Positions 60,062 to 62,130 of a stretch of 64,000 nucleotides of DNA are shown one piece after another; the stretch's first letter is position 1, and every line of letters starts with the position of its first letter. The DNA is from Flavobacterium sp. Lineage in GTDB: Bacteria > Bacteroidota > Bacteroidia > Flavobacteriales > Flavobacteriaceae. Made by a program: the position numbers and the translations under genes. The stretch covers positions 1 through 64,000 of the forward strand of contig VEQT01000005.1 in NCBI GenBank assembly GCA_018883065.1. Direction: 5' to 3'. Under the pieces are notes generated by a model that ran no database searches, was not told the DNA's origin, and saw nothing but the letters and a program-made list of their open reading frames with translations.

Positions 60062-61015
60062 ATGGCTGATAAAATTATACGTATTGGAACACGAGACAGC
60101 GCATTGGCATTGTGGCAAGCCAAGACAGTTGAACAGCAACTCAAGAATCTAGGAATTAAAACCAAGATCATTGCCGTAAAATCGGAAGGTGATCTTGTGC
60201 TTGACAAGCCCTTGTATGAAATGGGCATCACGGGTATATTCACCAAAACATTGGATTTAGCCTTGCTCAACGGCCAAATCGACGTTGCCGTTCACTCGAT
60301 GAAAGATGTGCCTACTGCTTTACCCGACGGTCTTGTGCAAGCAGCTGTATTAGAACGAGCATCTAATATGGATGTGTTGGTACATAAAGGAAATACTGAT
60401 TTCAGTGCAGTAACTGCAACAATTGCTACCGGAAGTTTGCGTCGTCAAGCCCAATGGCTCAATAAATACCCAAAGCATTCGGTTGTTGATTTACGCGGAA
60501 ATGTAAATACGCGATTGCAAAAACTAGCTGATAATGAGTGGCAAGGCGCAGTTTTTGCCGCTGCGGGTTTAGAACGTTTGGGCTTTATGAGCGATAAAAT
60601 TATTAAAAGCCCTACGTTTGAAGGCATTGTCGAAGTGTTGGATTGGATGATTCCTGCACCGGCTCAAGGGGCTATGGTTGTAGTGGCTATGGCCAACGAT
60701 TTGTTTACGTTAGATGTTTTATCGCAACTCAACCACATTGAAACCGAAATTTGCACCTACATCGAACGCCAATTTTTGCGCACTTTAGAAGGCGGCTGTA
60801 CGGCTCCAATCGGAGCAATTGCTCGCTATAACGAAGCGGAAGACAAATTTGATTTTACTGGCATTTTGTTGTCTGTAGACGGCCAGAAAAAATTGGAAAT
60901 CCAAAAAACTGTAGACGTTTCTGAGTGGAAAAAATTGGGCTATCACGCTGCCCAAGAATTATTAGCCCAAGGTGGAGCTGACCTCATGACCGAAATCAAG
61001 AATTCTTTGCAGTAA
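60062..61015 (+). CDS. hemC: Hydroxymethylbilane synthase
   Basis: IRIGTRDSALALWQA, DVAVHSMKDVPTALP, LRTLEGGCTAPIGA. Confidence 0.96.
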   Translation: MADKIIRIGTRDSALALWQAKTVEQQLKNLGIKTKIIAVKSEGDLVLDKPLYEMGITGIFTKTLDLALLNGQIDVAVHSMKDVPTALPDGLVQAAVLERASNMDVLVHKGNTDFSAVTATIATGSLRRQAQWLNKYPKHSVVDLRGNVNTRLQKLADNEWQGAVFAAAGLERLGFMSDKIIKSPTFEGIVEVLDWMIPAPAQGAMVVVAMANDLFTLDVLSQLNHIETEICTYIERQFLRTLEGGCTAPIGAIARYNEAEDKFDFTGILLSVDGQKKLEIQKTVDVSEWKKLGYHAAQELLAQGGADLMTEIKNSLQ

Positions 61016-61016
61016 C

Positions 61017-61045
61017 TCCCCTCTTGAGAGGGGTAGGGGGTGTGT
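61017..61045 (+). repeat. Left inverted repeat of DUF559 element
   Basis: TCCCCTCTTGAGAGGGGTAGGGGGTGTGT; 27/29 match to reverse complement of 61422-61450; includes hairpin CCCCTCT-TG-AGAGGGG. Confidence 0.95.
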
Positions 61046-61050
61046 AAAAA

Positions 61051-61455
61051 ATGAAAAGAAAAATAATACCATATAATCCAACGCTAAAAGAATTAGCTAG
61101 AGAATTAAGAAATAATAGTACAAAAGCTGAAATAATTCTTTGGTTAAAATTAAAAAACAAGCAGTTGTTTGGATATGATTTTCATAGACAAAAACCAATA
61201 GATAATTATATAGTTGATTTTTTTTGTCACGAATTAATGTTAGCAATTGAAGTGGATGGTTATTCTCATCAATTTGAGGATGTATATGTTAAAGATATTA
61301 CTAAAGAAAATAAGTTAAATGAATTTGATATTACAGTTATTCGGTTTACTGATGATCAGGTTTTAAAAGATATGGAGAATGTATTAAGGGCTATAGAATT
61401 TTATATTGAAGAATATGAAAAACACACCCCTAACCCCTCTCAAGAGGGGAACTAA
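61051..61455 (+). CDS. DUF559 (PF04480-type, Vsr/PD-(D/E)XK-like) protein
   Basis: LARELRNNSTKAEIILWLKLKNKQLFGYDFHRQKPIDNYIVDFFCHELMLAIEVDGYSH; C-terminal HTPNPSQEGN encoded by the right inverted repeat. Confidence 0.9.
   Translation: MKRKIIPYNPTLKELARELRNNSTKAEIILWLKLKNKQLFGYDFHRQKPIDNYIVDFFCHELMLAIEVDGYSHQFEDVYVKDITKENKLNEFDITVIRFTDDQVLKDMENVLRAIEFYIEEYEKHTPNPSQEGN
61422..61450 (-). repeat. Right inverted repeat of DUF559 element
   Basis: ACACACCCCTAACCCCTCTCAAGAGGGGA. Confidence 0.95.
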
Positions 61456-61464
61456 AAACAAATT

Positions 61465-62130
61465 ATGTTAAAAGAAATCAACATACTATCAACCAAAGCA
61501 CTTTCGTTAGTAGAAATACAATTTTTATTAGATGCAAATATTGCGGTAGATTCGGTAGATTTTATTGCAATAAACCCAAAAAAATTTACCTTAGAAACAG
61601 TGCATGACAACTTGATTTTCACCAGTCAAAATGCGGTACGTTCGGTTTTGCAGCATCCCGAATGGGAGCGACTCAAAAGCAAAAACGCATTTGCCGTGGG
61701 CATTAAAACTAAAAATCTATTGGCAGCAAACGGATTTAATGTAATCGCCTACACCGGCTATGCATCCGATTTGGCTGAAATTATTTCTTTGGTCTATGGC
61801 AAAGAAAGCTACACCTTTTTTTGTGGAAATTTGCGGCGAGATGTTTTACCCAACACGTTAAAAGAAAACGGAGTACAAGTCAACGAAATTGAAGTCTACG
61901 AGACCAAGCTCACGCCAATAAAAAACACTAAAAAAGTAGACGGAATATTATTTTTCAGTCCGTCAGCCGTTGAAAGTTATTTAAAAACAAATACCCTAAA
62001 AAACGAAATATGTTTCTGTATTGGCGAAACCACGGCAAAGGCATTAGCGTATAAAAATACCATTACAGCTGCCCACCCAACCGTGGAGTTGCTTCTGCAA
62101 GAAGTTGTAACACATTTTTCTGGTAAATAG
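61465..62130 (+). CDS. hemD: Uroporphyrinogen-III synthase
   Basis: FTSQNAVRSVLQH, DVLPNTLKENGVQVNEIEVYET, FFSPSAVESYL, CFCIGETTAKAL. Confidence 0.88.
   Translation: MLKEINILSTKALSLVEIQFLLDANIAVDSVDFIAINPKKFTLETVHDNLIFTSQNAVRSVLQHPEWERLKSKNAFAVGIKTKNLLAANGFNVIAYTGYASDLAEIISLVYGKESYTFFCGNLRRDVLPNTLKENGVQVNEIEVYETKLTPIKNTKKVDGILFFSPSAVESYLKTNTLKNEICFCIGETTAKALAYKNTITAAHPTVELLLQEVVTHFSGK

Follow-up and report, generated by a model that had tools for sequence, protein, structure and literature searches.

A DUF559 nuclease gene between inverted REP-like hairpin ends: a candidate minimal mobile element in Flavobacterium

Introduction

Among described systems, the closest to the locus reported here is the REP/REPIN-RAYT (TnpA-REP) pair, in which a low-copy nuclease gene lies beside short palindromes and many further palindromes are dispersed in the genome. 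RAYTs are HUH tyrosine transposases (PF01797), and their REPs carry a GTAG tag. Elements of the IS200/IS605 group are small, single-gene units with hairpin ends and no general target duplication; their transposase is of the Y1 HUH type, their target sequence is defined, and the smallest of them measure roughly 700 bp. MITEs are short inverted-repeat units, while I-Bth0305I and the other EDxHD homing endonucleases provide a different point of comparison, i.e. the nuclease fold. Finally, the Rickettsia palindromic elements and the CGTC REPs are palindromes without a known transposase that may lie in frame within proteins (Di Nocera 2013, PMC3733652). REP-like palindromes that have no dedicated transposase pose an open question, stated as such for the CGTC class (PMC3733652).

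Here we analyze a 64,000-nucleotide stretch of a Flavobacterium sp. contig (the window), in which a 432-bp cassette containing only a DUF559 nuclease gene and two inverted hairpin repeats lies between hemC and hemD. The cassette resembles REP/RAYT systems in its layout, but it encodes an EDxHD/Vsr-like protein (PF04480) and its ends carry a GGGGTGTGT tail; because it lacks both an HUH transposase and a GTAG tag, it is not a member of that group. It is predicted to share the nuclease fold of the EDxHD homing endonucleases, from which it differs in having conserved hairpin ends of its own and many unrelated sites, and no intron or intein was seen. Neither the Y1 HUH transposase nor the defined target of IS200/IS605 was found for it, and it is shorter than those elements. 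Its stems differ in sequence from those of the Rickettsia and CGTC palindromes, and they bracket a nuclease gene. One 180-bp pair in another genome (G463) is MITE-like, but the main unit has a gene of its own, and no parent transposase is known. DUF559 is named in 14 of 5.39 million open-access papers and PF04480 in one, and, as far as their accessible text extends, none of these describes such an element, which agrees with a preliminary description of this DNA that knew of none.

Results

Structure of the element between hemC and hemD

The element occupies positions 61018–61449 of the window (plus strand, GC 0.29), with its boundary at the conserved YT just outside the hairpin. Both neighbors are intact and on the plus strand: the hemC stop codon (gene at 60063–61015) is 2 nt from the start of the left hairpin, and hemD (61465–62130) starts 15 nt past the right hairpin. 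The left end (61018–61044, plus strand) consists of the hairpin CCCCTC-TTGA-GAGGGG (61018–61033) followed by the inward tail TAGGGGGTGTG, and it is shared with most of the 80 relatives described below. The right end (61423–61449, minus strand) is inverted, with the same arrangement of hairpin and inward tail (TTAGGGGTGTG), and both tails read (T)TAGGGG(G)TGTGT in the direction of the DUF559 gene. In general form, the inverted ends are YT-[CCCCTC-N4-GAGGGG]-N3-GGGGTGTGT.

The near-perfect 29-nt inverted repeat noted in the preliminary description is borne out at 61017–61045 and 61422–61450 (27/29 matching). At up to 3 mismatches, these two arms are the sole occurrences of the 29-mer in the window, and 100 dinucleotide shuffles returned 0. 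The hairpin, first given as 7 bp per arm, is in fact a 6-bp stem with a 4-nt loop (−5.5 kcal/mol as folded ssDNA). The gene between the repeats is indeed AT-rich as claimed, with a GC content of 0.24 compared with 0.43 for hemC and 0.37 for hemD. The right end codes for the C-terminal HTPNPSQEG, and the right arm of the repeat for the final HTPNPSQEGN of the protein, as already reported and as reproduced in the open reading frame (61051–61455, plus strand, 134 aa).

The encoded protein

The protein matches PF04480 (DUF559) with an E-value of 1.5e-29 and 102.5 bits, against a curated cut-off of 20.6, and its residues D56, E67, D69, and H73 are present without exception in the 50 relatives aligned. 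A Foldseek search with the structure model (pLDDT 90) placed NGO0050 first (3hrl, 4.7e-8), followed by the homing endonuclease I-Bth0305I (3r3p, 7e-4), with Vsr as a weak match. By profile, catalytic residues, and modeled fold, the protein is thus a member of the DUF559/EDxHD family and a predicted nuclease with a Vsr-like fold, consistent with the Vsr/PD-(D/E)XK-like class proposed initially. The domain occurs in 144 of 301 Flavobacteriaceae genomes (about half), and a related equivalog model exists in NCBIfam (PRK09767). Neither PADLOC nor Rfam gave a match.

Conserved ends at changing sites

A protein scan recovered 80 related loci in named genomes (47–94% identity), mostly from Bacteroidota and also from Chlorobiota, Ignavibacteria, Pelosinus, Nitrospinota, and one Lysobacterales record. 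Other copies of a DUF559 gene within inverted repeats, which the preliminary description proposed looking for, are common among them: 48 of the 77 relatives that could be scored carry both end units with tails pointing gene-ward, compared with 0 of 392 control windows from the same loci. Under strict counting, 57/77 relatives have a left unit and 59/77 a right unit whose tail points gene-ward, with the opposite orientation found 11 and 14 times, respectively. An inverted-repeat score of at least 14 is reached by 52 of 78 relatives vs 0/276 shifted and 0/78 shuffled controls.

Comparison of the flanks distinguishes 59 contexts among the 80 loci. Conservation past the hairpins ends after two bases (T at 0.9, then T/C) and is near background beyond position −4; this stop two bases outside the hairpin marks the element boundary. 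As in insertion sequences, then, inverted ends surround a single gene at varied sites. The elements are low-copy, however, often one per genome, which is the behavior of REP/RAYT systems and not that of high-copy IS. Specifically, no near-identical family of whole elements was found within any one genome, the only multiple occurrence being a tandem pair (L104, G074 C2) of two DUF559 copies with the same length and score, 1.4 kb apart.

Some ends depart from the common form. At three loci from several Flavobacterium species (L111, L115, and L347), the end is a variant whose loop is enlarged, CCCCTCTTGAAATCGAAGATTCAACGATTCCA...ATAGGGGTTAGGGGTGTG. At L121, L128, and L133 the inverted repeat is longer than the hairpins (L121: GAGTGAAGCTG..CAGCTTCACTC), which may mean either that the ends are longer there or that the element entered a palindrome.

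An empty site and the flanking AACT

The orthologous insertion is present in G444, a sister species, and comparison of hemC-hemD junctions, suggested at the outset as a check, identified an uninterrupted junction in the Flavobacterium relative G561. The joined G444 flanks align with it at 81% over the full length across the junction, and TTGCAGAAATAATTCG in G561 corresponds to TTGCAGAAACT[element]AACTAGAGAC in G444. The hemC gene of G444 no longer has a stop of its own and terminates within the left repeat (..LQKLPS*). A second site is less exact: G446 has a solo repeat behind a peptidase-like gene that G341 lacks, though not to the base.

The preliminary description read the AACT outside both arms as a candidate 4-bp target duplication. 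The AACT is indeed present on both sides, and a 4-bp duplication is possible at the G444/G561 site. Duplication as a rule is not supported, as abutting 4-bp direct repeats occur at 6 of 48 loci when 2.7 are expected from permuted ends. AACT also precedes solo repeat copies in the window's genome, so that on the left it probably belongs to the element end and is no proof of a target duplication. By eye, the outer flanks in G463 show a possible direct-repeat likeness.

Solo repeats and the nuclease gene

Solo copies of the ends, which the preliminary description listed among its checks, occur in the window's genome and in other Flavobacterium genomes. The 2.39-Mb genome of the window has one DUF559 gene and 13 hairpin-tail copies, i.e. 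2 at the element and 11 elsewhere, and 0 copies of the reversed control pattern. Nine of the 10 solo-copy loci examined there are outside open reading frames of at least 100 aa. Many solo copies of this species form part of a larger dispersed repeat, and their number may therefore owe something to a different amplifier.

Across 150 Flavobacterium genomes, the repeat is found in all 10 with a window-like nuclease (at least 69% identity; 102 copies), compared with 8 of the 140 others (21 copies). The association is significant (Fisher P = 3.7e-11, uncorrected for phylogeny), with the reversed control pattern at 0. The eight genomes with the repeat and no window-like nuclease include the closed genomes G353 and G368. 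About 11 solo repeats are also present in G561, whose hemC-hemD site is empty. In the closed genome G446, 12 of 14 copies fall within 154 kb around the gene, with similar clusters in G463 and G409. Additional arrangements are seen in G463 (L294, C1:74350-74854; L293, C1:53334-53512), namely a 95-bp tandem hairpin-repeat array, left-type and right-type solo ends, and the 180-bp MITE-like pair.

A second subfamily is an independent replicate of the repeat/nuclease association. All 19 Flavobacteriaceae genomes with the CCTTCCCTT hairpin, among 301 examined, have DUF559 (a weak match in three of them), compared with the background of 144/301 (P = 4e-7, also uncorrected for phylogeny). Dispersed multi-copy palindromes therefore track the nuclease gene, as in REP/RAYT systems, and the likeness drawn in the preliminary description stands in this respect.

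We also considered a RAYT as the mover and rejected it. G444, G372, and G446 lack PF01797 and hold 15, 7, and 14 repeats, respectively, and the hairpin is present at 0 of 30 RAYT loci. The only Y1_Tnp (RAYT) gene of the window's genome (L215, C64) is bracketed by its own CGCGCGAATCCTTCGCGTGG-like palindrome, unlike the CCCCTC repeat. No Y1_Tnp HUH transposase was found adjoining the repeats, and the hairpin foot has YT in place of a GTAG tag.

Other DUF559 subfamilies

Other subfamilies follow the same plan with stems of a different sequence, and in some a second small hairpin precedes a GGGGTGGT tail. In essential enzymes of Flavobacteriaceae, DUF559 lies in frame within LeuS (L015), MetH (L017, with two in-frame copies), and RecG (L050), and is fused to HemD (L019). 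The HemD, MetH, and RecG copies form well-supported, site-specific clades in the tree. The window gene is separate from the HemD-fused clade, which means at least two independent entries into the hemC-hemD junction.

In a small sample of plasmid-collection records, taken without statistical control, most DUF559 genes of Alphaproteobacteria, Neisseria, Cyanobacteria, and Deinococcus are accompanied by C/G hairpins on at least one side, and several of these carry TTAGGGTGGG-type tails. Among them, DUF559 with hairpins is seen between NAD(P) transhydrogenase genes in Sphingomonas (L385) and between paaD and paaZ in Deinococcus (L394). DUF559 as a link to the CGTC REPs (ATTCCC..GGGAAT) was unsupported, the Neisseria and Alphaproteobacteria loci having other stems.

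Discussion

Genome comparison reveals a bounded unit whose ends and catalytic residues are conserved while its sites change, together with an empty site and solo ends that track the nuclease. We infer its mobility from this comparison. The 59 contexts among 80 relatives and the empty junction in G561 fit a bounded unit moving over evolutionary time, and relatives are neither confined to one locus nor are the repeats restricted to it. We therefore favor, with a probability of about two in three, a minimal mobile element in which one EDxHD (Vsr/I-Bth0305I-fold) nuclease gene sits between two inverted REP-like hairpin ends. On the sequence evidence, the best reading is a REP/RAYT-like system built on a nuclease of Vsr/homing-endonuclease fold in place of an HUH transposase.

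In the mechanism we propose, the nuclease would recognize the folded end (the C/G hairpin with its G-rich tail) and would cut on the YT side, at the hairpin foot or close to it. Released or copied DNA would then be pasted or repaired into new sites. Whole elements would move rarely and single ends would spread more often, like REPs with RAYTs. In-frame copies in protein genes would be tolerated, because the ends are translatable.

An unlikely alternative, though the strongest of those considered, is a free-standing homing-endonuclease gene, with DUF559 cutting particular target alleles and being copied in by break repair, and with the hairpins as accessories (terminators or inert DNA at the repaired break). 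I-Bth0305I is the closest solved fold after 3hrl, PMC9403480 calls a DUF559 gene EDxHD homing type, and the HemD, MetH, and RecG clades keep their sites as homing genes do. The window-like clade does not, since the same ends recur there in 59 unrelated contexts, and a homing gene would have kept its site. Conserved hairpin ends and solo copies are not needed by such a gene, and the same junction holds the window gene and the HemD-fused genes as separate clades.

We give somewhat less credence still to passenger capture, in which the palindromes would be moved by some other enzyme, with DUF559 genes as cargo trapped between a pair of palindromes. Solo repeats without a window-like nuclease in G353 and G368, and the embedding of the window genome's solo copies in a larger repeat, would be accounted for in this way. 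Against it, the same two inward ends bracket DUF559 in most scored relatives, different subfamilies with different hairpins share one plan, and the obvious candidate, RAYT, is lacking in G444, G372, and G446 and carries the CCCCTC hairpin at none of the 30 loci examined. Finally, it is very improbable that this is an ordinary host repair or restriction nuclease gene with bidirectional terminators and coincidental repeats: DUF559 is frequent in Flavobacteriaceae and PRK09767 is a related model, whereas the empty site, the control windows, the repeat/nuclease association, and the lack of a T-run after the stem or of Rfam and PADLOC matches all argue otherwise.

If the mobile-element reading is taken further, we see an even chance that it describes a phylum-spanning class of autonomous elements of ~430 bp, among the smallest known. 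Here the elements would be moved by an EDxHD/Vsr-fold nuclease acting on hairpin ends, each DUF559 subfamily would have its cognate palindrome, and the class would have given rise to many transposase-less REP-like repeats and to in-frame domain insertions in essential proteins such as LeuS, MetH, and RecG.

DUF559 occurs in roughly half of the Flavobacteriaceae genomes, and each subfamily examined has a hairpin to match; it is a directly testable candidate for the enzyme behind REP-like palindromes that lack a dedicated transposase, at least for the C/G-stem class. Small elements with such defined ends could also serve as tools. If true, the proposal would give mobile DNA an additional catalytic class, provide a role for a domain "of unknown function", and account for the nuclease domains inside essential enzymes.
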